From a virus: a stretch of 36,614 nt of DNA. The notes beneath the pieces are model-generated. The model had not been told where the DNA came from, made no database searches, and saw nothing but the letters and a program-made list of their open reading frames with translations. Below are positions 18,876 through 34,811 of this stretch, piece by piece (within the stretch, counting starts at the first letter, position 1; each line of letters opens with the position of its first letter). The DNA lies in the IMG/VR virus record IMGVR_UViG_3300050120_000089, positions 1-36,614 of that record. One strand, 5' to 3'. The translations under genes and the position numbers were made by a program.

Positions 18876-20678
18876 ATGACCGGAAAAATCATCCTGTACC
18901 GTCGCTTCAGCACCGATGAACAAGAAGGCGGCGATAGCCTGACCCGCCAGCTTGAGGCGTGCGAAGCCTTCGCCCAATCCAAAGGTTGGACCATCACCGA
19001 CCGCTTGGAAGACGAAGGCTTTTCGGCCTTCAAGAATGCTCACATTGAATTTGGAAAGCTCGGCACGCTGACGCGCCAAATCCAAAACGGCGAGCTTGAA
19101 CGCGGAACGATCCTGATTGCGGAAAAGCTGGACCGTCTCTCACGCCGCGAATTCGGCGAGGCGATGGCCTGGATTTGGAACCTGACCAAGCAAGGCGTTG
19201 TGATCGCCATTGCCGATTCTGGCGCGATCTATGACCACAAACCCGACATTGGAAGCTTCATCAGCGCAGCCGTAACCGCTGACCAGAACCACCGTGAAAG
19301 CGAAAAGAAGTCGGTCAATGTCCTTTCCGCCAAGCGCAACCTATGGCGGGACGCTCAGACCAAAACCGGCAAATGGGTCAACGCGGCGGCTCGCATTCCG
19401 TCTTGGCTGACCCGCAACGAAACCCGCAACGGTTGGATCGTTGACGATGGACGCGCCGCCATCGTCCGCCAAATCTATGAGTGGTCGGCGGACGGTCTCG
19501 GCTCTGCCGCCATCTGCCGCCGGCTGAATGAAGCTGGCGAACCATCGTGGGGTGTTTGGCGTAAGGCTCAAGCCGCGCAATGGGGCATCACCGCCGTTAA
19601 TATCCTCTTGGGAAACCCTGCCGTTGAGGGCGAGCTACGGGCGGAATCCGGCCAATTTGCCGGCCAATCCATCCCCGATTTTTATCCGCGTATCGTTGAC
19701 GCTGACCTTGTGGCGCGGGCGCGGGCGGGCAAAGCCGAGCGGACCAAGATCACCAAAAATGGGCGAGGCGAATACGAACATTCGCGCGGGACATATGGAA
19801 CCGCTGGACTTTTCTCGGGTCGCACTGTCTGCGGCGAGTGCGGCGGGGCCGCGACTATCTCCAGCCATACGAAGGAAAAGAAGGGCCGAAGCTATCATTA
19901 CCGCTATCTTCGGTGTGAGGCTTACAGAGAGGGCCGCGACTGTTCCAACGGGGGATATTACCCCTATCACGCGTTTGAAGAATCCGCGTTGGGGCTCTGC
20001 ATTGACCTTGCCCTTGACGACCGCTTTTTTGAATCGTCTGGCGACTTGAAACGGCTACGGGTCGCGAAGGCCGAAGCTGAAAAAGCCATCGCTGACAAGC
20101 GGCAGGCCCGCGCCCGGCTAATGACTTTCCTTGAGGATGGTGACGACCAAATGCTGGGACGGGTCCGAGAATTGAAGGTTGAGATTGACCGACTGGCTAC
20201 TGATCTAGCCGTCATTGAAACGGACCTTCAAAAAGCCGCCGGCAAGGTAGGCGACATTGAACACCTAAGCCGCGTCAACGATATCCGCGAAGCGGCTAAG
20301 TCCGACGACGCGAACACCCGAGAACAAGCGCGGGCGAAGCTCCAACGGGCGCTGGCGGCGATCATCGGTAGCGTAGCGATTGAGCGCGACGATATAGGGC
20401 GCAAGGTCTTCACCGTAGCTTTAGCCGGCGGTGTTCTCGCGGCACGCTTTGACGACAAGGGCGAAGTGATCGGCTTAATCACCGATGCGGCAGGCAAGCC
20501 ACTATATGAGAACCTAGACGATGAAGACCGCGAAACGCTGGCGCCGCTAATCAAACGCATTCGCGCCCGCATTGGCGGCAAGGCGTCCAAGCCAGTTGAC
20601 TTGGATCAATTCGCCATAGTCTCCCGCTCTCATGAAGGCGGCTTGCTGACTGACGCGGCCCGGCCATTGGCCGAGTAA
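18876..20678 (+). CDS. int: Large serine integrase / recombinase
   Basis: The 600-aa protein opens with the resolvase fold IILYRRFSTDEQEGGDSLTRQ, where the Ser of RFSTDEQ is the nucleophile. The catalytic KLDRLSRREFGEA helix is at about residue 86. A recombinase domain follows (PSWLTRNETRNGWIVDD), then a zinc ribbon with CGECGG at about residue 316 and further Cys in RCEAYREGRDC. A long coiled coil follows at about 380-470. This is the size and order of large serine integrases, which insert phage DNA at a host att site without high negative supercoiling. A gene-free stretch follows downstream. Confidence 0.93.
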   Translation: MTGKIILYRRFSTDEQEGGDSLTRQLEACEAFAQSKGWTITDRLEDEGFSAFKNAHIEFGKLGTLTRQIQNGELERGTILIAEKLDRLSRREFGEAMAWIWNLTKQGVVIAIADSGAIYDHKPDIGSFISAAVTADQNHRESEKKSVNVLSAKRNLWRDAQTKTGKWVNAAARIPSWLTRNETRNGWIVDDGRAAIVRQIYEWSADGLGSAAICRRLNEAGEPSWGVWRKAQAAQWGITAVNILLGNPAVEGELRAESGQFAGQSIPDFYPRIVDADLVARARAGKAERTKITKNGRGEYEHSRGTYGTAGLFSGRTVCGECGGAATISSHTKEKKGRSYHYRYLRCEAYREGRDCSNGGYYPYHAFEESALGLCIDLALDDRFFESSGDLKRLRVAKAEAEKAIADKRQARARLMTFLEDGDDQMLGRVRELKVEIDRLATDLAVIETDLQKAAGKVGDIEHLSRVNDIREAAKSDDANTREQARAKLQRALAAIIGSVAIERDDIGRKVFTVALAGGVLAARFDDKGEVIGLITDAAGKPLYENLDDEDRETLAPLIKRIRARIGGKASKPVDLDQFAIVSRSHEGGLLTDAARPLAE

Positions 20679-22091: not shown

Positions 22092-25000
22092 GTGAGCGTC
22101 ACCCGAATATTCCTAACCAACACTTCCCTAACCTCTTGGACGGTTCCGAGCGATTGGACTTCTAACAATACCGTTGAGGTAATCGCGGGTGGTGCTGGCG
22201 GTGTTAATGCCGCCCCCGGCGGGGGTGGTGGTGGTGGTAGCTATAGTTTAAAGGCCAATATTGCTCTTACACCCGGATCAAATGTCTCAATTGGCATTGG
22301 CGTCGGCGGCGCAACCACAACAGCGGGTGGTAATACTTGGTTCAATGGCAATTCACTTTCCAACGCTTCTGTATCGGCGCAAGCGGGGCAAGCCCCATCG
22401 GGAGGAACTGGTGGCTTAGGCGGTAACGCCACCGTCAGCATCGGCACTACCAAATTCAGTGGCGGCAATGGCGGAACGGGTAACACGAACGGCCACGGTG
22501 GCGGTGGTGGTGCTGGTGGCCCCAATGGGACCGGCGCAAGCGGCGGGAGCGGTGGCCCTGGCGGCTCTGAAGGATCGGCAGGCGGTGGCGGCTCTGGTGG
22601 CGGCTCCGCCGGCTCGCAATCTCTCTCCACAACGGGCGGTGCTGGCGGCAATAACTTCGCTGGTAGCGGCGGCGGTGTCCCCACAACTGTCAACGGTGGT
22701 GCAGGTACGGCCGGCGGCGGCGGGGCCGGTGCAGGTAATGCAGGCGGCCTTGGTGGTGCTGGTGGTGCGGGCACTGAATGGGACGCAACCCACGGCTCGG
22801 GTGGCGGTGGCGGCGGCGATTTCACAGCCGGGACCGCTGGTGGGGTTGGTGGCCTCTATGGCGGTGGTGGCGGTGGCCGTCGTGGTGCGGTCGGCGCGCC
22901 TGGACTAATCGTTGTTAGCTACACTTCAAGCAACGTGTCCGCGACGATCAGCGGAAAGACTCCCTTACCCTCTGCATCAGCGTCGGGAACACGCGGCGAA
23001 ACGGCGAGCGTCGGCGCGACCACGCTTGGCCCCAGTCAGACCGCAACTGACTTAGCAATTCGTGGCCCAAGCTTCAGTTTTTGGGGATCAAATGGTTCTG
23101 ACACCCTAACCGCCAATACTGCGGTGGCGCCAGACGGAACAACCACAGCAACGCATTGCGTTCCTTCGGCCATCAATACAAGCCACTACCTATATTATGG
23201 CTCTACCTACGGGCCAGGGACTTACACTTTCTCGGTTTACGCCAAGGCGGCTGGATATCCTCGCATTGCTATGCGGGTCTATGACGGCACGGCCTACCGA
23301 ATGTATACAACATTTGATATCAATGTTGGTAGCGTGGTTGTCAGCACCGCCGGCACACCTTCAATATACCCTGTTGGCAATGGATGGTTCCGTTGCGTTG
23401 TTACAGGCACAAGCCCAACCGCTACCTTCGGTTCGCTTTCAGGTTGGTGTATTGATTTTCTTGATTCTACCCATACCACACAGCAAGCGTTCTTAGGCGA
23501 CGGCGTAAGCGGCGTTTATCTATGGGGCGGCCAAGTTCAATCTGGTAATATCACTTCGTATATTCCAACTCCGGTTGCGACTTCTAATACCGCCGTTGTC
23601 GGCCAAGCCTATGGTTATGTTGGAGTGTCGGGAACGCTCGCGCCCAAGACTTTGGTTCCGACCGCCTCAGTATCAGCTACACACAAAGTAGGCGTAAGCC
23701 TATCTACGAAAACGCTGTCTCCAGTTGCGGCAGTTCAGGCCAAGGGTGGTGAATCTGGGGTTATAGGGGCAACCGCGCCTATGCCGACTCCGGGGGTTTA
23801 TACCAATCTTTGGACTAACTCTCGGATTGGTGCTGGATTTAATTTCTCATTGTCAACAATCGTTTCCGATACATCGGGATTTGGGATTGCACCTGATGGC
23901 ACAAATTCTGCAATTCGCATCCAAGGAACCTCAACGAATTGGGCATCCAGCCAAACCATTATAGGCACACCTTCGGGTAATGGTACTATTTCTATGTGGG
24001 TTAAGAGCAATACTGGCTCTTCACAACTATTCCGTCTTTTCGGTTCTACTGGCGTTATATCGGGTAATTTCACAGCAACCACAAGCTGGCAGCGTTTCAG
24101 CTTCACTACTGCGTATACCGCACCCAATTGGGGTATTTGCCGAGACAGCACAAACGATACTGGCGACTACTTAGTATGGGGTCCACAATTTGAGCTTGGT
24201 TCGGTCATGCACAATTATGTGCCAACCGGAGCCAACAGCGTTGTTGCAGGTTTCGCCTACGGTGCGGTGGGTGAATCTGCGGTTGTAAATGCGCGGACGG
24301 TCTCGCCAAATCCCGTGTCTCTACAAGCCAAGGTAGGTGAAAGACTGACGCTTGCGTCAACCACCGTGCCCCCGAAAGCCGCCCTGGCGCTCAAGGAAGG
24401 GTCAAAGGGAACGCTGGCGGCCACGACGGGTCTTCCTGTCGCTCTGGTTAACGCTACCCATAAGCGTTCGCTCGCGGTATCCGCGCGCACCTTGGCCCCA
24501 TCGTCAGCCTTCAACGCTCGCGAGGGCGTAGCCGGGTCGGCGTCGGCTAAAACGGTTGTTCCCAACGCCGCTGTAGCGGCTCGGGAGGGTGCTGCGGCGT
24601 CAGTGTCGGCAAAGACTGCCCTACCCGCCTCTAACGCTCTCCTGAAGGCTGGCGAACGGCTATCGGTAGCTGCGATCACGCCCGCGCCGCGCGCGGCTGT
24701 GTCTGCCGTCCACAAGATCGCGGCGAGCGTATCGGCTAAGACCCTGGCACCATCGTCTGCAATCCAGGCGCGTGAAGGCGCTCGGGGAACGATCAGCGCC
24801 ACGGCTCCGAAGCCTTCGGCGAGCGTCAGTGCGGTTCATAAGCTCAACGCTTCCGTAGCAGCGTCTACAGGCTTGCCGCGTGCTTCGGTCACGATGGCCC
24901 AAGGCAACCGTGCAAGCGTCTCCAGCCTCGCCCCACGGCCTACAGCAAGCGTTGTAGCCAAGGAAGGTGCGCGAGGCTCTGTAGCGGTCCTGACACCGTT

Positions 25001-25406
25001 GGCGAAGGCTTCTGTTCACGCTGGCGTTGGAGCGTCGGGCATCATCGTTCCGCCATCGGCTCGGCTACCATCCGCGAGCGTCCAGGCTCGCACGGGTGAA
25101 GCTGGCACGATCCACGGGACAACGATTGCCCCAACCGCGCTGATCAACGCCAATCGGATCGTCAACACTGACTTTGGGGTGATCGTCGGCAAGACGCTAT
25201 CGCCCAGCGTCGCGGCTCACGGTCTGACGATAGATCAGGACTGGATCATTTCCGAGATTAAGCCGGCGGCTGACGTGCGCGGGGTGAAAGCCGGCGCTGA
25301 TACTCGCAAGGTCAGCGTGAAGGCGGACAACCGGTCAATCAAACCGTCAAAAGACACCGTGGCAATAAATACAGGTGCGGACACACGGTCTGTAAAAGTG
25401 AGGTAA
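22092..25406 (+). CDS. Glycine-rich, repeat-built tail fibre
   Basis: The 1104-aa protein has a short beta start (SVTRIFLTNTSLTSWTVP) and then a long Gly-rich region to about residue 275, a phage fibre domain type. Next come degenerate repeats of about 30-35 residues (cores like VSAKTLAPSSAIQAREGA) interrupted by two jelly-roll-like domains. The first is near residues 325-500 (FSFWGSNGSDTLTANTAVA) and the second near 575-720 (NLWTNSRIGAGFNFSLS). A long repeat block follows, then a C-terminal ADTRKVSVKADNRSIKP-type charged tail. Start is GTG, 4 bases after CTAAATA. It is likely a receptor-binding fibre. Confidence 0.8.
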   Translation: MSVTRIFLTNTSLTSWTVPSDWTSNNTVEVIAGGAGGVNAAPGGGGGGGSYSLKANIALTPGSNVSIGIGVGGATTTAGGNTWFNGNSLSNASVSAQAGQAPSGGTGGLGGNATVSIGTTKFSGGNGGTGNTNGHGGGGGAGGPNGTGASGGSGGPGGSEGSAGGGGSGGGSAGSQSLSTTGGAGGNNFAGSGGGVPTTVNGGAGTAGGGGAGAGNAGGLGGAGGAGTEWDATHGSGGGGGGDFTAGTAGGVGGLYGGGGGGRRGAVGAPGLIVVSYTSSNVSATISGKTPLPSASASGTRGETASVGATTLGPSQTATDLAIRGPSFSFWGSNGSDTLTANTAVAPDGTTTATHCVPSAINTSHYLYYGSTYGPGTYTFSVYAKAAGYPRIAMRVYDGTAYRMYTTFDINVGSVVVSTAGTPSIYPVGNGWFRCVVTGTSPTATFGSLSGWCIDFLDSTHTTQQAFLGDGVSGVYLWGGQVQSGNITSYIPTPVATSNTAVVGQAYGYVGVSGTLAPKTLVPTASVSATHKVGVSLSTKTLSPVAAVQAKGGESGVIGATAPMPTPGVYTNLWTNSRIGAGFNFSLSTIVSDTSGFGIAPDGTNSAIRIQGTSTNWASSQTIIGTPSGNGTISMWVKSNTGSSQLFRLFGSTGVISGNFTATTSWQRFSFTTAYTAPNWGICRDSTNDTGDYLVWGPQFELGSVMHNYVPTGANSVVAGFAYGAVGESAVVNARTVSPNPVSLQAKVGERLTLASTTVPPKAALALKEGSKGTLAATTGLPVALVNATHKRSLAVSARTLAPSSAFNAREGVAGSASAKTVVPNAAVAAREGAAASVSAKTALPASNALLKAGERLSVAAITPAPRAAVSAVHKIAASVSAKTLAPSSAIQAREGARGTISATAPKPSASVSAVHKLNASVAASTGLPRASVTMAQGNRASVSSLAPRPTASVVAKEGARGSVAVLTPLAKASVHAGVGASGIIVPPSARLPSASVQARTGEAGTIHGTTIAPTALINANRIVNTDFGVIVGKTLSPSVAAHGLTIDQDWIISEIKPAADVRGVKAGADTRKVSVKADNRSIKPSKDTVAINTGADTRSVKVR
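24230..25150 (+). repeat. Coding repeats in the fibre
   Basis: About ten degenerate units encode alternations of ASVSAxTxxPxAxVxAREG. The unit length is near 30-35 residues. Earlier units occur at about 22920-23010 and 23610-23790, separated by the two inserted jelly-roll-like domains. Confidence 0.6.
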
Positions 25407-25718: not shown

Positions 25719-26117
25719 TCATCCTACGCGCCTTCCCATATCGTTGATGGTCGCCGCGAACCACAGGAACCAATTAGATTCTTCAAATTCCTCCCCGGAG
25801 TATAATTGTGACAACTTACGCGTCTTTAGCTTTTTAGTTAGGTAAAAGTCAGCCCGCAATATTTCCCCGTGCAACATCCTGCCAACACGCGGATCAACAA
25901 TGGCCGCGCGACGATCAAAACTGACCGCAAAGCCCAATGATCTTTTGTGATACGGAAGATCGTGAAGCATATTTGGATTATCAAATACGACTTTATCGGG
26001 GTTACTGCCGTAATTCCATAGTTGCCGTCGCTCACCCCCCCAACTCTTCGGCGTATGTGATTCACACCAATTAACAACTTCCGTAAGAAAAGCCGGCTGC
26101 ACTGACTTTGTAATCAT
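25719..26117 (-). CDS. Hypothetical protein (132 aa)
   Basis: The protein is Trp- and aromatic-rich (VVNWCESHTPKSWGGERRQLW, NWFLWFAATINDMG) with a basic segment LTKKLKTRKL. I do not recognise it. ATG 26117 is preferred, with TTG 26129 as an alternative. Its stop overlaps the end of the converging fibre-associated gene closely. A promoter-like region with TTGACG and a shared GACTCCGTTT string lies upstream at 26172-26200. Confidence 0.5.
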   Translation of the reverse strand: MITKSVQPAFLTEVVNWCESHTPKSWGGERRQLWNYGSNPDKVVFDNPNMLHDLPYHKRSLGFAVSFDRRAAIVDPRVGRMLHGEILRADFYLTKKLKTRKLSQLYSGEEFEESNWFLWFAATINDMGRRVG

Positions 26118-26171
26118 TATGTGAGACAATTATGCGATCCTTACTGATAACGCCCAATTGGACCAATAACG

Positions 26172-26218: not shown

Positions 26219-26488
26219 TCATTCGCCCATCGCCGCGCCGATTAAATCTTCAATCGTATCAAAATCCAATCCTTCAAGCTCGCCAACCGCTTCGTCTAAG
26301 CTGTCGGCGGCGGCTTCCATGGATTGCCCGCGCTCTGTAGCCTGAAGACCCTCAGAAAGGTTGTCAAAACCTTCGCGTTCTTCGCTCGCGCACTCTTGAA
26401 TAATTCCAATAGCTTCGTCAAAGTTTTCACGGGCGGTCTGGATAAGAGCAATCGCCTTATCTAATTCGGCCCTTCGTTGCTTATTCAA
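26219..26488 (-). CDS. Small helical protein, common phage type of unknown function
   Basis: The 89-aa protein starts NKQRRAELDKAIALI, continues with a helix, EEREGFDNLSEGLQATERG, and SMEAAADSLDEAVGELEG. This NKxRRxxLxxA ... EExxxxDNxxExLQxxER pattern is a widespread small phage protein whose role is unknown. It is predicted as a coiled helical bundle. The start is TTG with GGGAG 8 bases upstream. A strong sigma-70-like promoter lies about 130 bases upstream with a structured leader. Confidence 0.6.
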   Translation of the reverse strand: MNKQRRAELDKAIALIQTARENFDEAIGIIQECASEEREGFDNLSEGLQATERGQSMEAAADSLDEAVGELEGLDFDTIEDLIGAAMGE

Positions 26489-27532: not shown

Positions 27533-28111
27533 ATGTCTGAGGATTTCAAGACGCTCGCCGCGCAAGTGGTGGCGTCCTATGTGTCCAACAATACCGTTGG
27601 AGCTTCCGAGCTACCGGGATTGATCGCCGCCACTCATGCCGCCCTGGCGGGCGCGTTCGCGCCGCAGCCGGCGGCCGATGCTCCCGAGACGGTTACGAAG
27701 GCAACCCGTAGCCAGATCGCCAAGAGCGTCACGCCCGATGCTCTCATTTGTTTGGCGTGTGGAGCGTCCTTCAAATCCATGAAGCGCCATCTTGCCGCTA
27801 ATCACGGGCAAACGCCCGGCGAATATCGGATGGCCTATGGCCTCCCGAGTGACTACCCCATGGTTGCGCCGGCCTATAGCGAACAGCGGAGCGCCTACGC
27901 CAAGAGCATCGGCCTTGGTAAGGGTGTCGTGCGCGGCAGACCAGCAGCGCCGCCGGCTATCGTCCAGGCGGCCTTGAAAGCTCCAACCAAAGCCAAGGCG
28001 GCTCCCAAGGCAAAGACGCCGGCCACGGCTGCGGACAAACCGCCCGTGAAGCCAGCCAAAGCGTCCAGGCCAGCGGGTGCGATTGACCCTGCCTCGGACC
28101 AATTTGAATAG
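27533..28111 (+). CDS. MucR/Ros-family zinc-finger transcription regulator
   Basis: The 192-aa protein has the family core at residues ~60-130: KSVTPDALICLACGASFKSM, then KRHLAANHGQTPGEYRMAYG and LPSDYPMVAPAYSEQRSAYA. The C2H2 finger ligands are the two Cys of CLAC and the two His of HLAANH. MucR/Ros proteins are a hallmark of Alphaproteobacteria and bind AT-rich DNA. Here the C terminus carries an added Ala/Lys/Pro-rich tail of about 50 residues, likely extra DNA contact. An AGGAAA lies 8 bases before ATG. It is a candidate lysogeny or early-gene regulator and is divergent from the 27423 gene. Confidence 0.9.
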   Translation: MSEDFKTLAAQVVASYVSNNTVGASELPGLIAATHAALAGAFAPQPAADAPETVTKATRSQIAKSVTPDALICLACGASFKSMKRHLAANHGQTPGEYRMAYGLPSDYPMVAPAYSEQRSAYAKSIGLGKGVVRGRPAAPPAIVQAALKAPTKAKAAPKAKTPATAADKPPVKPAKASRPAGAIDPASDQFE

Positions 28112-28330: not shown

Positions 28331-28627
28331 TTGGGACGCAAGAATTACGACCGCTATAGCGATGCTGACTGGCGTGGCGTGGCAAAGACGGTTGCCAGAC
28401 AGCGTGCGCTCGGATGGTCGGTAAAATCGGTCTGCGGACGCTGTAGGCTGGAAATGGAATGCGACCTTGCGCTGATAGAGCGGGTCAGCGGCCCCGAGAC
28501 GGTCCTATGGGGAAGGTCCGCCAAATGCCGGCGCCTACGCTGCGGCGGCTCTGTGACCTTCCACGCCAAGCCGCCACAGATGGGCTACTATATCCAGATG
28601 CGGGCTATCCACCCCACCGACATTTGA
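28331..28627 (+). CDS. Zinc-ribbon protein, small
   Basis: The 98-aa protein has Cys pairs CGRCRLEMEC and CRRLRC, with the intervening LIERVSGPETVLWGRSAKC. A conserved-looking end FHAKPPQMGYYIQM follows. The CxxCxxxxxC ... CxxxxC spacing is a zinc ribbon seen in many unnamed alphaproteobacterial proteins. No ATG is available, so TTG 28331 is the predicted start, with GGAG only 2 bases before it. The TTGACT plus LexA-box-like region just upstream suggests DNA-damage control. Its 3' end overlaps the converging 28605 gene by 23 bases. Confidence 0.6.
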   Translation: MGRKNYDRYSDADWRGVAKTVARQRALGWSVKSVCGRCRLEMECDLALIERVSGPETVLWGRSAKCRRLRCGGSVTFHAKPPQMGYYIQMRAIHPTDI

Positions 28628-28976
28628 AATGGACGGCCTCGGTATCGTCGGTAAAGCTGACGCTGAAACCGAAAACATCCCTGGCTCGGATGATCGCATC
28701 AATTTCAATTGAGTAGGACTCGGTATTGTCCATGATCCAGTTAAGCACTTCTTGCGCCTCGGTAGCGTTTCCGTGAATGATTATATTCTTTGACTGCTCT
28801 ACAGTGAGCGGCATTGACCAACGCACCCGCGAAACGGGTCCGGTGGAGAAGGTATATCCCCCGTTCAGGCCAACCCTCGCATGAAGCATTGTGGCGGTTA
28901 TATTTGCAGCGAGCATTGCAGCGTTGGCGGTCGCTTGAGCATGGTTGGCTATAGTGGTTGTGTTGGCGATGCTCAC
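28605..28976 (-). CDS. FKLRW-family protein A (123 aa)
   Basis: The N-terminal half is Ala/Thr-rich (SIANTTTIANHAQATANAAM) and may be a helical or secretion-like leader. The C-terminal 50 residues carry the family signature: LNWIMDNTESYSI, then VSFTDDTEAVHFKCRWGG at the end. It starts at GTG in a GTGA overlap with gene B (28973-29245), and its stop lies in the antisense overlap with the zinc-ribbon gene. No function is known. Membership rests on both ends of the shared segment. Confidence 0.6.
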   Translation of the reverse strand: MSIANTTTIANHAQATANAAMLAANITATMLHARVGLNGGYTFSTGPVSRVRWSMPLTVEQSKNIIIHGNATEAQEVLNWIMDNTESYSIEIDAIIRARDVFGFSVSFTDDTEAVHFKCRWGG

Positions 28977-29245
28977 TGATCGTCACCAACGATATATTCT
29001 GAAAACCGGAGCTTGAATAGGATGGCGTCTGCATCGTCCTCAAAATAAACCGTGCCAATTGGTTCACGATAGCTCAGCCACAATTCTGTTTCGCTATGAT
29101 CAGGGTTACTTCTGTATTCTCCTACGCAAAACAGATGTTTTAATCCCGTTTCCGAAATCCATTTTCCAAAGAGAACTTCAAACACCCTAAACATTGGCGC
29201 TTGCAGTGTCGCTTTACTTGCGGGAAATGCTAACTCAAATCGCAT
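28973..29245 (-). CDS. FKLRW-family protein B (90 aa)
   Basis: The protein starts RFELAFPASKATLQAPMF, carries FGKWISETGLKHLFCVGEY at residues ~26-44 and ends VYFEDDADAILFKLRFSEY plus a short tail. The W-I helix followed by a strand and the DAILFKLR terminus place it with the other five small proteins. It overlaps the preceding small ORF's stop and the next gene's start, so it is in a compact coupled series. Confidence 0.65.
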   Translation of the reverse strand: MRFELAFPASKATLQAPMFRVFEVLFGKWISETGLKHLFCVGEYRSNPDHSETELWLSYREPIGTVYFEDDADAILFKLRFSEYIVGDDQ

Positions 29246-29342
29246 TCAATCCTTTCGCCGCTTGCTCCGCAGCATCGTAATAAGGCTTTAGCTCGGGACG
29301 CTCATGCTTTAACCCCCATTTTCCAAATGTAGGCGTCAGCAT
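29235..29342 (-). CDS. Small ORF (35 aa) with a plausible C-terminal end
   Basis: It encodes LTPTFGKWGLKHERPEL followed by KPYYDAAEQAAKGLNAI. ATG 29342 lies 8 bases after the stop of the upstream gene and its own stop overlaps the start of gene B. It could instead be the 3' part of a frameshifted gene (see findings). No family is recognised. Confidence 0.45.
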   Translation of the reverse strand: MLTPTFGKWGLKHERPELKPYYDAAEQAAKGLNAI

Positions 29343-29350
29343 AATATTCA

Positions 29351-29734
29351 CTAAAGGACTCGCCGTATGGCGCTTTGAACGCCTTCAGAGCGGCTATCGC
29401 GGCCTTTTCGGACGTAGACCGCCTGAACGGTAAGTGTCGTCTTTGGGGTCGCATAGCAGCAACCACAGAATTTGAAATTGTATTCTCTGACGACCAAGGC
29501 GTGTGTTGGTGGTGCGAAATAGTCCGCGACCGTGGCCGCGAGGTTGTCCGCGTCAAAGGTGTGATCATAGAAACCCGGCGCGTAGCGGTTGGGATCACCG
29601 ATCACGATATTGGAGCCGACAAGGCCGGCGCATCCGCCTTCAGTCGGGCAACAGCCCGCAAGCTGATCTTCGGTGGAGTTGTGAGCCGCGTTGAGAGCGT
29701 CCACCAACATCGTTTTGATTGGATCGGCGGTCAT
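29351..29734 (-). CDS. Cys-rich hypothetical protein (127 aa), possibly frameshifted at its end
   Basis: The protein starts TADPIKTMLVDALNAAHNST and has a Cys set EDQLAGCCPTEGGCAGLVG and later FKFCGCCYATPKTTLTV. These could bind metal. After about residue 110 it turns Arg-rich (KGRDSRSEGVQSAIRRVL). In the +1 frame the continuation (AAIAALKAFKAPYGESF) looks more protein-like. The start overlaps the upstream stop by ATGA. Family unknown. Confidence 0.5.
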   Translation of the reverse strand: MTADPIKTMLVDALNAAHNSTEDQLAGCCPTEGGCAGLVGSNIVIGDPNRYAPGFYDHTFDADNLAATVADYFAPPTHALVVREYNFKFCGCCYATPKTTLTVQAVYVRKGRDSRSEGVQSAIRRVL

Positions 29735-30039
29735 TTGGACTCACCGTCTCTGTTAGACAGTCGGCGAGCGGAATTGACCGCTTGGGCGTGAGCTTTTGCT
29801 ACGGTTTCCTTGACCCACTCGGCCGAAACATCGCCGCCAGCCATTCGGAAAATAATATTCGCAACCAATTCTTCAAGCGCAGCCATTTTGGCTTTACATT
29901 CATCGTGGGTATTCATTGCGTGCGCCATCGCAACCTGACATTCGGACAACTCGTCAGACGCCGCTACATAGGCTTTGCGGATTAGCGCGAGGTGTTCCAT
30001 TGCGTGGGCCAAAGACCCGGTTTCATACTTCTGTTCCAT
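29731..30039 (-). CDS. Helical hypothetical protein (102 aa)
   Basis: The protein starts EQKYETGSLAHAMEHLALIRKAYVAA and has a long coiled helix (SDELSECQVAMAHAMNTHDE, KMAALEELVANIIF), then a C-terminal charged tail. A strong Shine-Dalgarno AAGGAG lies before ATG 30039. It is coupled to the 29351 gene by an ATGA overlap. No function is recognised. Confidence 0.6.
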   Translation of the reverse strand: MEQKYETGSLAHAMEHLALIRKAYVAASDELSECQVAMAHAMNTHDECKAKMAALEELVANIIFRMAGGDVSAEWVKETVAKAHAQAVNSARRLSNRDGESK

Positions 30040-30090
30040 AATTCTCCTTAGCGTCGCGGAAAGCCCCGCGACTGGCGGTTAGTTGTTAGA

Positions 30091-30276
30091 TTAGCTCCAG
30101 ATCATCTTGAACAATGCCGCGCCGGCCTTGTCTTCAAAATGATAGGTTAGTTCGTCAATCGCCATCGGGTCCGCTTCATCGCAAGTGCAATAGGCTTGAA
30201 TATTATTTTCATCCAGCCATTTGGCTATGCGATTGGTCTTACCGCCGTGGGGAATAGTGATCATCCATTCGTTCAT
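30091..30276 (-). CDS. FKLRW-family protein C (61 aa)
   Basis: This is the shortest clear member: NEWMITIPHGGKTNRIAK, then AKWLDENNIQAYCTCDEAD and the ending YHFEDKAGAALFKMIWS. It consists almost only of the shared domain, so it shows the minimal unit of about 55 residues. It starts in an ATGA overlap with the 30273 gene. Confidence 0.6.
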   Translation of the reverse strand: MNEWMITIPHGGKTNRIAKWLDENNIQAYCTCDEADPMAIDELTYHFEDKAGAALFKMIWS

Positions 30277-30461
30277 CGTCTCGCCTCATGTTCTTTAACT
30301 CGCTGCATCAACCATTCGTATTTGTTCTTTCCTTGCCGCTCTAACTCGGCACGATCCATGATCAGATAGCTATCGCCATTGTCAGTCAGGATCGGATAGA
30401 CGAAATAATCAGGATGTCCGATGCGCAGATTTTTTGGATTATGCTTTTTATTCATTGTCAA
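30273..30461 (-). CDS. Small basic hypothetical protein (about 60-62 aa)
   Basis: The protein has a Lys/Asn-rich start (NKKHNPKNLRIGHPDYFVY) and a C-terminal helix (ELERQGKNKYEWLMQRVKE). It overlaps the 30458 gene at a TTGA. TTG 30461 or ATG 30455 could be the start. It is coupled on both sides. Family unknown. Confidence 0.5.
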   Translation of the reverse strand: MTMNKKHNPKNLRIGHPDYFVYPILTDNGDSYLIMDRAELERQGKNKYEWLMQRVKEHEARR

Positions 30462-30676
30462 ACCCAGCGTAACTTGAACAAGAGCGCATCTTCAGCGGAT
30501 TGGAATGTTACCGGAATTCTCTCTGTTCCATCTTCGTCGGTAAACCATCTGCCAATCTGAAAATGAGGCGTGTTATTCACCAACCAATGAATCAAATCGC
30601 CACCCCACATTCCGTAAGTAAGGCGTTCCATGTTGATAATGTAGTCTTCAGCGACGGTTTCGGGAACATCGCTCAT
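30458..30676 (-). CDS. FKLRW-family protein D (72 aa)
   Basis: The protein starts SDVPETVAEDYIINMERL, carries DLIHWLVNNTPHFQIGRWF in the middle and ends VTFQSAEDALLFKLRWV. Start at ATG 30676 is preferred because it overlaps the upstream TGA as ATGA. An ATG at 30703 would extend it by 9 residues. The family signature at both ends is clear. Confidence 0.65.
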   Translation of the reverse strand: MSDVPETVAEDYIINMERLTYGMWGGDLIHWLVNNTPHFQIGRWFTDEDGTERIPVTFQSAEDALLFKLRWV

Positions 30677-31143
30677 GCTCTCGCCCACCGTTGCTTGAAC
30701 CATGCGCGGAACCTATCCGAGGAATAGATATACAGTGGCGCGGCTATCGCGAAGGACACGGCGCCGAGGATCGGCAAATGGTTGAGGAATGCAGGCATTC
30801 CAACCGATTGGAAAAATAGCCCAACATAGAACGCGATTTGCTTTGGGTTGATCTTTTCCCGCCTCTCTTCCGCATAAGCTAACAGCGCGTCGGATTGGTC
30901 CTTGACGCTCAAAGTATGCGTATGTTCCGGATAGGTTAGCCGGCATAGAATAGCCTCAGCGTCGCTATTGAACCGGACCATCATTTGCGCGGCGATTTGA
31001 TAGTCTAATTGGCTGGCTCTGTCGCGGACCACTAAGGCCTCTGCTAAATCAATATCGCAGACTGTCCCGCCGTGTTCTGTTATCCAAAACACGTATTCCG
31101 TAACCTTATCGGCTGGCAAAAATGCATATAGAGAACTACTCAT
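30673..31143 (-). CDS. FKLRW-family protein E with membrane tail (156 aa)
   Basis: The N-terminal domain carries EYVFWITEHGGTVCDIDL and the shared ending as VRFNSDAEAILCRLTYPEH. It differs from the other members in continuing with a coiled linker and one or two hydrophobic segments (GLFFQSVGMPAF, LPILGAVSFAIAAPLYIY). It therefore looks like the same domain fused to a membrane anchor. AAGGA lies upstream of ATG 31143. Confidence 0.6.
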   Translation of the reverse strand: MSSSLYAFLPADKVTEYVFWITEHGGTVCDIDLAEALVVRDRASQLDYQIAAQMMVRFNSDAEAILCRLTYPEHTHTLSVKDQSDALLAYAEERREKINPKQIAFYVGLFFQSVGMPAFLNHLPILGAVSFAIAAPLYIYSSDRFRAWFKQRWARA

Positions 31144-31441
31144 CAATATTTCCTTGGTTTTTCAATGCTTTTTGTTTCAAATAATAGGTTCTATTATATT
31201 CAGCGCGCTTGCCGGGATGTTCAAGCAACCACTTCTTCAGATTGGCAAGATGGCGCGCATAGTTTTCCAGTTGCCATTTCTGGGCGGCTTTCTTTGCAGC
31301 CTCGCGGACATGCTCTTTATCTCGGTAATATCCACGGCGGCGCTCGGCTGCGCACGGCTTGCATATTCTCGCTCTAACCGAATAATCACTAACGTCTTCC
31401 CCAACGATCAAATCGCGTTGGCATTTGCTACACTGTTCCAT
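31136..31441 (-). CDS. Zinc-ribbon protein resembling the endonuclease VII N-terminal type
   Basis: The protein starts EQCSKCQRDLIVGEDVSDYS, continues RARICKPCAAERRRGYYRD and then has a long basic helix. The CxxC ... CxxC followed by a basic helix resembles the recombination endonuclease VII N-terminal zinc region found in many phages, though the nuclease core is not evident. CTAAATA sits exactly 5 bases before ATG on the minus strand. Confidence 0.6.
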   Translation of the reverse strand: MEQCSKCQRDLIVGEDVSDYSVRARICKPCAAERRRGYYRDKEHVREAAKKAAQKWQLENYARHLANLKKWLLEHPGKRAEYNRTYYLKQKALKNQGNIDE

Positions 31442-31446
31442 AATAG

Positions 31447-31453
31447 TATTTAG
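31447..31453 (-). promoter_or_regulatory. CTAAATA start-associated element
   Basis: On the minus strand CTAAATA is followed by 5 bases (ctatt) and ATG 31441. Confidence 0.6.
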
Positions 31454-31588
31454 TCAGAATAGCGAATATTTGTGCATTTTGCAATATTATTTTAATAATG
31501 CTCGGATTATGGGGTTGTGTTATAAATAGAAGTGAGGCGACGTTGACTCCTTGGTGTCTCCTTACATTGTAAACTGTATTTGCTTAAG

Positions 31589-31624
31589 CCCCGCTGGAGT
31601 TTAGTGGTTTTTCCTCCAGCGGGG
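31589..31624. other. Strong hairpin without a clean terminator tail
   Basis: An 11-bp perfect stem CCCCGCTGGAG (31589-31599) / CTCCAGCGGGG (31614-31624) with a 14-base loop lies between gene F (31633-32058) and the 31441 gene. No T run follows on the minus strand (the plus-strand side has TTTT a few bases later). It may be a processing, attenuation or weak termination hairpin. Confidence 0.55.
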
Positions 31625-31632
31625 TAATTGTT

Positions 31633-32058
31633 TTACCAACGTCTTTGAGACAAATGCGTTGACCAGCGCAATTTGAAAAATACCGCTTCGTTGTCTTCCT
31701 TAAACCTGAATACAACCGCTTGGTCTTTGTCTGGATCGCGAATAATCCAAATTGTCGGATCACTATCGTTATCAAGTAGCCATAGGCCGATTTCAATTAG
31801 GTCGTCATGATAGACATCATATGTAAACGCCCTGGTCGGCGGGAACTCCAACACAATATCCAGGCGGTTTCGGACTAACAGCGGGTCCAAACACTCCGCC
31901 TTTGCGAGAACTATTTTTCCTTGTATAAAAACCAATTCCGTAGTCCACGCGTCGCCGCTGTAATAGGGTGACGTGCTTTCATCGTGCGGCGGACCATACT
32001 TTTCTGGCTTCGCGGCTTGGGCGGCCAATGCCGCTATTATCTCAGCTTTAGTGACCAT
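31633..32058 (-). CDS. FKLRW-family protein F (141 aa)
   Basis: The N-terminal half has helix VTKAEIIAALAAQAAKPEKYGP and a strand-rich middle. The C-terminal domain holds EIGLWLLDNDSDPTIWIIRD and the shared end VFRFKEDNEAVFFKLRWSTH with a short basic tail. It is the most conserved copy of the ending. It overlaps the helicase gene's stop by 11 bases, so it belongs to the replication operon. Confidence 0.65.
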   Translation of the reverse strand: MVTKAEIIAALAAQAAKPEKYGPPHDESTSPYYSGDAWTTELVFIQGKIVLAKAECLDPLLVRNRLDIVLEFPPTRAFTYDVYHDDLIEIGLWLLDNDSDPTIWIIRDPDKDQAVVFRFKEDNEAVFFKLRWSTHLSQRRW

Positions 32059-33640
32059 GTTTCTTGGCCTCTAATCTCGCCGTGAAGTCAGCAATGTCAT
32101 TGCCTGGATTTTCTTTGACGGATTGCAGATAGCGATAGCTGACCCGCTTGGCGTGACCGCGCACACCCTTTTCAAAGATCGGCTTGGGGGCTGCGGCGAT
32201 CAGTTTGGACAATTGGCGCCCCCAAACGATTAGCTCGGTAGCGAATTGACGCGGATAGTGATCGTCTTCCCATTGTCTGAAGACGCTATGCAGATAAGCC
32301 GCCGTCACCCAACCATCGTCATTGGCTTCCCGCCGCAGGAACAGATAATTATATTCGGTCGGGTCAAATAGTTCATACCAAACTTCAACGCTCGTCTTGC
32401 TCCGCTGCGATCCTTGCAACGCCTTCAGTTGGCCGTTGAACGCCTTCAGAGGGTCAGCCGCAGCCGGATCAACCGAACTCCACACCGCACACCAATCAAC
32501 CGCGTTCAGAGCCGCCCAATTAGGGTTGGACCGCATCATTAGGCCAGCGAACCGGCGGTTGCCGGTCTTGTCCCTGATAAGCTGGTCCATATCGTCATTG
32601 GACGTTCCAATGAGCGTGGCCTTTTGCTCCAGGCTGATGACATCGTTGCGGCCAAGTGGGCGGGTGTCGCTCCGCTCGTCACTGATCAGCGTCTTGACGG
32701 TATTCATTTCGGCTTTTTTCGCGCCGGCCATCTCGTCAACAAACAGAATGAAGCTTTTTGACAATTCCATCGCGTAACGTTGGTCGGCAATCTGATCAAA
32801 CTTGACGCTTCTGAATGTCTCTAACAGCGGTTCGCAGATTTTTCGGACCAACGTTGTCTTGCCGATGCCTTGGACGCCTAAAAGCACGATCATCAAATGA
32901 TCCTCAACCGGCAATCCGAGCATTTTTCGCTTTACCTGATGAATGAATTTCTTGATTGCCGCCTCGTAAAATTCCGCCGGATAGTCGGATGACGTTTCAA
33001 AGTTGGCTTCCACGGCGGCGCGTAGCTGGGCGGCGGTTGTGTCCGCGTCAAACGGGCGGCTGATATCCCGATACATGACTTGCACGCGGGCGGCCCTGGC
33101 GGCCGGCGCCCAGACCTCAACGGCGGCCCGCAGTTCGGACTCGCTGAAGCGCTTCAACGCAAGGTGTTGGCGGGTGAATAGGAATAGCTCGTTATAGAGG
33201 GTCTGAACGGTGATATCCCGGCGTGTGAGGGCGATCCGCTGGCACACGGCAGGGTCAGCCAAGTCAGAGGCTTCCACGGGCACCACGCGCCCGCTATCCA
33301 GCACCATCGTTGATAGCTCGCTGGTGATCATGCCGTTGTGTCGGCAGACGATCTTGCGGCTATCCGTCCATAGCTCAATCAGGTTGGTTGCATCGGTGGG
33401 GAAGCCCCCGAGGATCGCACTCACCTTGGCTTGGCTGACCACCTGACCAACGGTCTTATCGGTGATCGTCTTACCGCCGTGAGCGAGCAACGCGCACTTC
33501 AGGCGATGCCAGACTGATGGCGGGTGTTCGTATTTGGAACGCTGGCCAGCGAGCTTCAAAAGCTCTGATCGCTCGTCATCCGTCGCGGTATAATCGGAGT
33601 CAAATAGCTCCCATTCGTCTAATTTTTCAATAAAGTCCAT
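32048..33640 (-). CDS. VapE/SF3-like replicative helicase
   Basis: The 530-aa protein has an ATPase core with Walker A GVQGIGKTTLVRK at about residue 253 and Walker B SFILFVDEM at about residue 296, then LIGTSNDDMDQLIRDKTGNRRF, a sensor-type segment of VapE/VirE and SF3-like replicative ATPases. The N-terminal half holds DNA-related helices (LLKLAGQRSKYEHPPSVWH) and may be the primase-accessory or loading part. It follows the primase gene with a 32-base gap. It would unwind DNA at the iteron origin nearby. Confidence 0.85.
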   Translation of the reverse strand: MDFIEKLDEWELFDSDYTATDDERSELLKLAGQRSKYEHPPSVWHRLKCALLAHGGKTITDKTVGQVVSQAKVSAILGGFPTDATNLIELWTDSRKIVCRHNGMITSELSTMVLDSGRVVPVEASDLADPAVCQRIALTRRDITVQTLYNELFLFTRQHLALKRFSESELRAAVEVWAPAARAARVQVMYRDISRPFDADTTAAQLRAAVEANFETSSDYPAEFYEAAIKKFIHQVKRKMLGLPVEDHLMIVLLGVQGIGKTTLVRKICEPLLETFRSVKFDQIADQRYAMELSKSFILFVDEMAGAKKAEMNTVKTLISDERSDTRPLGRNDVISLEQKATLIGTSNDDMDQLIRDKTGNRRFAGLMMRSNPNWAALNAVDWCAVWSSVDPAAADPLKAFNGQLKALQGSQRSKTSVEVWYELFDPTEYNYLFLRREANDDGWVTAAYLHSVFRQWEDDHYPRQFATELIVWGRQLSKLIAAAPKPIFEKGVRGHAKRVSYRYLQSVKENPGNDIADFTARLEAKKHGH

Positions 33641-33672: not shown

Positions 33673-34692
33673 TCATTTAAACATTACAGAACGCAAATCG
33701 CTCTTGAGCGCGTCACGGCCATATTTTTGTAAGCAATAGGAAGACTGGCGAGCGTCTAATTCGTCTCTAAGATGCTGCATATCGCCGAATGAAAGCGATT
33801 TTTGGCTTTTCTTCCAAATTTTGATCAACGTTCCGAACAACGATTGCCGGTGACTGCCGCCCTGATAGGTCGTATCAAAGGTTTCCAGCCATTCGCGGCG
33901 GCAGATCGTCGGATTATAGATTGAGATATCAGCGCTGACGTTGAAGTCATTCAACTGCGGTTGCATCGCGGTCCAACGCTCTGGTGTCAGAATAACATCG
34001 CTTGACGTGCGTTTTGCTCGCTTCAAAGCGTAGGTCAACGCTTGCTCGGGCAAAGCTTCAACCGACGATAACAGCGCGTCCGCGTCAATCGCCTGGCCTT
34101 CTAGCCATTGGCGTTTCTCGCCCGCGAACGTTGGGCCAAACAGAAAATCGCCATCGTCATAGCAAGACCCGTCCATTTGATAATGGAACAGATGGTTGAA
34201 CCACACATATAACAAAAACCCTTCGTCAAAGCTGATATCTCGCGATAACGGCATGATGGCGCGGGTTTTGTGTTTGTCAGGTTTGTGCGAATAGCTGGTA
34301 TATAGCAGATGCGAATAATTCAGCGCTCGCAGCACTTCATCAATTGCGTCAATCGTGACCATCGGCTGATTGGGTTGATCGTTGTCGCAATCCAAATACA
34401 TGACGCTCATGTCATGAGAGGAACACGCGCCGACGCGCCAACGGCCAAATTTGGTCTGACCATCGTATAGATCGGTCTTATACGATTGTTCAAACAGCGT
34501 AGGTGTGAAACCAAAGCTTTCTTCTTTGTTGGATTGCTTGGTTGGGTAAGAGCATCGTTGCCAGAAGTCCGACGCGAATTCGTTGAAGTCAGCGTATAGG
34601 CCAGCGTCTTCGTCAATCTGACCAAGCTTTAAATGGCGGGTGTTGTCTGACCTTCTGGTGTAAACGGTGGTCATGTAGGATATAGTTAGCAT
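33673..34692 (-). CDS. AEP/prim-pol-like primase
   Basis: The predicted 339-aa protein has MSVMYLDCDNDQ at about residue 96, where the DxD resembles motif I of archaeo-eukaryotic primases. SYSHKPDKHKTRAIMPLSRDI follows at about residue 131, a TSxSH ... RxxxPLSR pattern typical of phage and plasmid primases. The later YDDGDFLFGP may be motif III. Start ATG 34692 is chosen because GGAG lies 5 bases before it. GTG 34794 would add 34 unusual residues across a hairpin. The origin lies directly upstream. Confidence 0.65.
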   Translation of the reverse strand: MLTISYMTTVYTRRSDNTRHLKLGQIDEDAGLYADFNEFASDFWQRCSYPTKQSNKEESFGFTPTLFEQSYKTDLYDGQTKFGRWRVGACSSHDMSVMYLDCDNDQPNQPMVTIDAIDEVLRALNYSHLLYTSYSHKPDKHKTRAIMPLSRDISFDEGFLLYVWFNHLFHYQMDGSCYDDGDFLFGPTFAGEKRQWLEGQAIDADALLSSVEALPEQALTYALKRAKRTSSDVILTPERWTAMQPQLNDFNVSADISIYNPTICRREWLETFDTTYQGGSHRQSLFGTLIKIWKKSQKSLSFGDMQHLRDELDARQSSYCLQKYGRDALKSDLRSVMFK

Positions 34693-34693
34693 T

Positions 34694-34728
34694 GGGGCTC
34701 CGAGGTGGTGGAAGACACCTGGAGCCCC
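34694..34728 (-). promoter_or_regulatory. Hairpin sequestering the primase ribosome binding site
   Basis: GGGGCTCCAGGTG (34728-34716) pairs with CACCTC-GGAGCCCC (34707-34694) with one bulge and an 8-base loop. The 3' arm is the GGAG Shine-Dalgarno for ATG 34692. It would block initiation until melted. Confidence 0.6.
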
Positions 34729-34811
34729 TGTAATACACCGCTCGCTTGCCGCGTTGCGGGCGTATATCCGAAAATCCTTGAACTGGTCTTCCACAACCGT
34801 TGTTCTAATTT

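Follow-up and report, generated by a model that had tools for sequence, protein, structure and literature searches.

Why would a phage keep, just downstream of a helicase gene, several small genes whose products end in much the same way, with a motif resembling FKLRW? The question was raised by a viral record of 36,614 bases (IMG/VR IMGVR_UViG_3300050120_000089; the whole of this stretch is referred to as the window), in which an earlier note, made from the sequence alone, had described six genes between positions 28605 and 32058 as a six-member paralogous family in one operon. All six open reading frames (ORFs), here named P1 to P6, are present and lie on the minus strand. They belong, five of them firmly and P5 probably, to a family that phages of Proteobacteria keep in tandem arrays, with as many as about 80 copies in one genome.

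Homology of the six genes

Membership was assessed with different profiles. In leave-one-out searches, a profile built from five window proteins was searched for the omitted sixth among the ORFs of the window. An external profile was trained on members from other contigs only, with the window sequences excluded, and a further profile (A2) was derived from a 118-member alignment of diverse family sequences. The six genes, with their expectation values (E) and lengths in amino acids (aa), were as follows:

28605-28976, minus strand: P1, family member, 123 aa, GTG start, domain ending ...FTDDTEAVHFKCRWGG; external profile E 8.9e-8, A2 profile 5.4e-8
28973-29245, minus strand: P2, family member, 90 aa, ending ...FEDDADAILFKLRFSEYIVGDDQ; external profile E 4.5e-9, leave-one-out 2.6e-7
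30091-30276, minus strand: P3, minimal member, 61 aa, the domain alone; external profile E 3.4e-9; AlphaFold2 model
30458-30676, minus strand: P4, family member, 72 aa, ending ...FQSAEDALLFKLRWV; external profile E 1.3e-9; AlphaFold2 model
30673-31143, minus strand: P5, probable member, 156 aa; leave-one-out E 0.004, external profile 0.25, no A2 match
31633-32058, minus strand: P6, family member, 141 aa, N-terminal extension of about 70 aa, ...FKEDNEAVFFKLRWSTHLSQRRW; external profile E 5.9e-10

Each of the six leave-one-out trials ranked the omitted protein ahead of every other remaining ORF (E of 2.6e-7 for P2, 9e-7 for P6, 7e-5 for P4, 1.7e-4 for P1, 1.3e-3 for P3, and 4e-3 for P5), and the next unrelated ORF did not score better than 0.3. 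With the external profile, the best E among 28,520 shuffled ORFs was 0.019. By these profile comparisons, P1-P4 and P6 (external profile E <= 9e-8) can be firmly regarded as homologous members of one family, whereas P5 is counted as a probable member only, because it scored only 0.25 with the external profile and was missed by A2.

The remaining parts of the proteins differ much as first described. P3 consists of little more than the domain, and the N terminus of P1 is rich in Ala and Thr (17 of its first 35 residues). In P1-P4 and P6 the domain is C-terminal, the chains ending 0-10 residues past the motif. P5 departs from this pattern: its domain-like part (residues ~13-75, ...FNSDAEAILCRLTYPE) is followed by a C-terminal extension that is indeed hydrophobic (maximum 19-residue Kyte-Doolittle hydropathy 1.65) and possibly membrane-inserted. 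Besides P1-P4 and P6, the A2 profile matched one further gene of the window:

25719-26123, minus strand: possible seventh member, matched by A2 over positions 23-53 (E 3.9e-4); E 0.0035 with the external profile

Only an alpha1-like segment, WCESHTPKSWGG, matches in this gene, and the FKLRW ending is lacking; it may be a very divergent seventh member.

Occurrence in phages and bacteria

A search with P4 led to a viral contig of 436 kb, on which a profile of the six sequences detected about 20 ORFs within 12 kb, most of them with the same motif ending. The alignment of the six sequences (A1) held no stretch conserved enough for a collection-wide scan. Viral contigs were scanned with a strict DNA pattern encoding DA[hydrophobic]xFKLRW, which yielded at least 119 stretches. 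Nearly all of 125 ORF motif matches ended 0-4 residues before the stop codon, a position not expected by chance. An iterated profile detected 543 members in 1.02 Mb of viral loci (best reversed decoy E 0.7), with a median length of 84 aa. Tandem layout was the rule: 330 of 414 consecutive same-strand member pairs lay within 600 nt of each other, end to end. Individual large records carried 75 (436 kb), 65 (608 kb), 82 (266 kb), 68 (415 kb), and 70 (462 kb) copies, and some large phage records held one copy per ~3-9 kb. The expansion proposed in the earlier note is thus strong in other phages and larger than had been claimed.

Members also occur in cultured phages, where A2 profile matches ranged from E <= 1e-4 to 4e-14. 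Sinorhizobium phage Phosso (469 kb) carries 47 members at E <= 1e-3 in many small clusters; in the stretch inspected they are annotated merely as hypothetical proteins. Five members were found in Agrobacterium phage Atu_ph07, three in Pseudomonas phage PA5oct (EST35_0247, 0274, and 0275), and one, weak, in Burkholderia phage BcepSauron. No member was found by the A2 profile in T4, phiKZ, N4, or P-SSM2. Among 397 other Pseudomonadota genomes sampled, only two had a match at 1e-5. The scarce matches in bacterial genomes (Microvirga, Methylobacterium, Caballeronia, and Burkholderia) lie in some cases in prophage-like settings. At the Microvirga locus a helicase gene is followed, directly at its stop, by the start of a member, the same order as that of the helicase and P6 in the window; the two helicases are 32% identical. 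A match in a Roseobacter phage was rejected, since the annotated protein was without the domain and the record without a profile match. Single sequences are too poor as queries to detect this family: tblastn of P4 against cultured phages gave no match and a consensus query gave Phosso alone, at E 9.

Some members stand out by their architecture or neighbors. A collagen-like N-terminal segment (Pfam E 6.4e-8) is fused to the FKLRW-type domain in one viral protein (L102:1405-2142, minus strand). In a Methylobacterium protein of 222 aa (L130:5558-6226, plus strand) the domain is C-terminal, and the N-terminal part resembles a helix-turn-helix on visual inspection; no Pfam match was obtained. In Atu_ph07 (L151:3026-3331, minus strand) and BcepSauron (L152:1374-1676, minus strand) a member adjoins a Nudix hydrolase gene, and on the strength of this adjacency the two could possibly form a functional pair. 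A Nudix-box search over all viral loci examined found none. A PHROG scan of neighboring genes returned a mixed set (structural genes, replication genes, and nucleases) and no dominant partner.

As judged from sequence libraries, the family is unrecognised and bears no public name, in line with the earlier note, which could not name one. None of 118 diverse members matched PHROGs, NCBIfam, or PADLOC, and the only Pfam match among them (DUF6208 at 0.0032, in one member) is at chance level. The members of PA5oct, Atu_ph07, BcepSauron, and Phosso had no credible PHROG match, and no sequence relative of the family was present in the PDB. We found no paper describing the family in the literature covered, which was mostly outside subscription journals.

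Predicted fold and conserved residues

The shared unit is a domain of about 60 residues. Structures were predicted for P3 and P4 among the six window genes. The AlphaFold2 model of P3 had a mean predicted local distance difference test score (pLDDT) of 88.8 and a predicted template modeling score (pTM) of 0.71, with strands at residues 4-9, 28-32, and 42-47 and helices at 14-23 and 50-60. P4 (core pLDDT >90) showed the same order of elements, so that the two predictions agree on a common fold. Both chains stop after helix 2, and a fourth strand is absent. The models thus give confidence in a beta-alpha-beta-beta-alpha fold, i.e. a ferredoxin-like arrangement without its last strand.

The structural neighbors of the models were considered as guides to function. 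If the members were RNA- or DNA-binding regulators with an RRM- or KH-like open sheet, they would control phage or host transcripts. RRM and KH domains are indeed among the best structural neighbors (Z 5-6.7), the top Foldseek matches are KH domains (E >= 0.23), and the window members adjoin replication genes. However, the KH GxxG loop, which 22 of 211 members have, is not conserved, strands 1 and 2 are separated by a single helix and not by two, and every Z is below 8, a range of merely similar arrangements. The proteins are also mildly acidic: their median net charge is -2, strong hydrophobicity is confined to 3 of 538 members, and on both counts they appear to be soluble and not generally nucleic-acid-like. 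We consider nucleic-acid binding unlikely. Even less probable is a role as ligand-binding, ACT-like regulatory subunits that would respond, during infection, to a nucleotide or amino acid. For the P3 model the best VIA match was the ACT domain of TyrA (Z 7.7, 2.7 A, 58 residues) and more ACT domains followed, yet Pfam gave no ACT match for any of 118 members and the PDB contained no sequence relative, the Z, being below 8, may stem from a widespread arrangement, and the would-be ligand loops are the least conserved part of the domain.

Conservation was measured on 173 non-redundant members that had not been chosen via the motif scan. Invariant or nearly so were a W in helix 1, the F that closes strand 3, and, within the C-terminal helix, F, L, and either W or F; in FKLRW, K and R are found most often at their positions but vary. 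Conservation begins about 40 residues before the motif and covers helix 1 and strand 3. These data bear on the idea that the motif is a signal for docking, localisation, or stability (e.g. a compartment, chaperone, or protease adaptor tag) and that the activities reside in the variable N-terminal parts. Its nearly constant place at the extreme C terminus would suit a tag, as would the diversity of the N-terminal parts, including the collagen-like one. A tag would not, however, explain the upstream conservation in a unit that as a whole is predicted to fold as a domain, nor P3, which consists of this domain alone; P5, if a member, even carries it internally. We therefore hold this explanation to be rather improbable.

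Within helix 2, columns 38, 39, 40, 41, 43, and 45 are hydrophobic, corresponding to 0, 100, 200, 300, 140, and 340 degrees. Because the helix is hydrophobic almost all round, it may well have two buried faces, one on the sheet and one on a partner.

Divergence between copies

For 185 orthologous pairs (75-97% identical), the ratio of nonsynonymous to synonymous substitution rates (dN/dS) was about 0.12 overall (domain, 0.11; remainder of the protein, 0.15). Such low values indicate functional proteins rather than decaying or neutral ORFs, and single genes that are not hypervariable. The term 'diversifying', applied to the genes in the earlier note, consequently fails in its strict sense, as orthologues are under purifying selection, and holds only for the divergence that, by sequence comparison, lies between old paralogues. 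Recent amplification was rejected, since paralogues from the same locus were just 25-63% identical by blastp. Between related arrays, whole members have been inserted, lost, reordered, or moved. A faster turnover of family genes than of their neighbors was not supported.

Genomic setting in the window

The six genes lie downstream of a VapE/D5-like helicase gene, which overlaps the start of P6 by 11 nt, and the stop of P2 overlaps the start of P1. Other features of the window are:

673-2289: terminase
18876-20678: large serine recombinase
27533-28111, plus strand: ROS/MUCR-type transcription regulator, phage-borne (Pfam E 5e-40)
31588-31625, minus strand: GC-rich hairpin of 11 bp without a U-run, directly downstream of P6 (dG -26 kcal/mol, z -4.3)
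32048-33640, minus strand: VapE/D5-like helicase, 530 aa (Pfam VapE-like domain 1.2e-20; PHROG DNA helicase 8.7e-18)
33673-34794, minus strand: replication-module protein, 373 aa, with a weak match to primase-helicase families (phrog_256, E 9.9e-5)

None of 200 shuffles folded as well as the hairpin. Together with a gap of about 190 nt, this strong hairpin probably separates P6 from the other five genes, so that the single operon described earlier is only partly borne out. The hairpin may be a terminator or a processing site. ROS/MUCR-type regulators are typical of Alphaproteobacteria. Given this regulator and the recombinase, the window probably derives from a temperate tailed phage of an alphaproteobacterium.

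Elsewhere in the window, a short gene (26219-26488, minus strand) matches phrog_4068, whose function is not known (E 1.5e-21). A protein of 1104 aa (22092-25406, plus strand) carries degenerate repeats of the VSAKTLAPSSAxxAREGxxG type, and its N-terminal part is glycine-rich; this product is perhaps a tail fibre.

Proposed role

The explanation we prefer, tentatively and at a little below even chances, is that the members are soluble, non-virion accessory proteins built on a shared scaffold, each copy binding a different host or defence protein. They would be made in the infected cell, and the scaffold would dimerise or dock via its C-terminal helix. The variable N termini and loops would let each copy bind its own host or anti-phage-defence protein, which would be blocked or redirected, and the phage would carry a toolkit whose content is altered by whole-gene gain and loss. 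This proposal draws on the restriction to viruses, the many divergent paralogues, the soluble acidic nature of the proteins, and the constraint on orthologues, as well as on the neighborhood of replication genes, the contact-type conserved helix, and the annotation of PA5oct, in which the three members lack the 'ESI-MS/MS' note borne by other genes of that record.

The same annotation bears on whether the members are virion components, i.e. internal head or decoration proteins, for which large phages have room. Copy number peaks in large phage records and one member has a collagen-like part, as such a role might predict. Yet besides the missing mass spectrometry (MS) note in PA5oct, the window genes come after the replication module and not the structural module, and the low identity between copies is ill-suited to a repeated structural part; a virion role seems to us very improbable. 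The alternatives possibly rank in the order RNA binding, C-terminal docking tag, ligand sensing, and virion role.

Several points weigh against a protein-binding scaffold. The missing MS note is weak evidence for proteins of 7-9 kDa, and the interface argument for helix 2 rests on an ideal helical wheel and not on measured burial. Orthologues do not evolve as fast as a single-residue arms race would give (dN/dS about 0.12), and members show about the same turnover as the non-family genes of the same intervals. Finally, no match to an anti-defence family emerged, although the PADLOC models are of defence and not of counter-defence. For the window genes, the role in host takeover or anti-defence suggested in the earlier note is compatible with the sequence data; the label 'early' given to their operon derives solely from its position next to replication genes.

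A bolder version, which we regard as doubtful, holds that this mini-scaffold has been expanded in the manner of the multigene families of eukaryotic large DNA viruses, with dozens of copies per genome, each with its own host or defence target, which together would give large phages a major, hidden repertoire for counter-defence. On present sequence evidence, the family is probably an overlooked phage toolkit for dealing with hosts. A name for it would give hundreds of 'hypothetical proteins' an annotation in a single step, and the cultured carriers (Phosso, PA5oct, and Atu_ph07) make function testable now. If the members do form a counter-defence scaffold, they provide a large collection of natural variants with which new bacterial defence targets could be sought.

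Comparison with known systems

In the order and arrangement of its elements (beta-alpha-beta-beta-alpha), the predicted domain resembles ferredoxin-like domains such as the ACT domain of TyrA (5v0s) and RRM domains (e.g. Pes4 RRM4), with Z up to 7.7. It differs from them in lacking the fourth strand after helix 2 and any sequence similarity, and in its FKLRW helix signature, which they do not share. For the models, these values (ACT 7.7; RRM and KH up to 6.7) are below the level that shows relationship. Type I KH domains (PCBP2 KH3 and Nova KH3) ranked first in Foldseek for the P3 model (E 0.23, probability 0.85), but have two helices where the family has one, and their GxxG loop is not conserved in it.

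At the level of genes, the closest counterparts are those of Phosso, Atu_ph07, PA5oct, and BcepSauron, which match the same A2 profile and are hypothetical proteins where annotation was viewed; Phosso differs from the window in its far greater number of copies. The host-takeover modules of T4 and SPO1 are accessory arrays of early genes that are mostly unrelated to each other. The window resembles them in its small, overlapping, dispensable-looking genes clustered outside the structural module, and is unlike them in that its copies share one domain.

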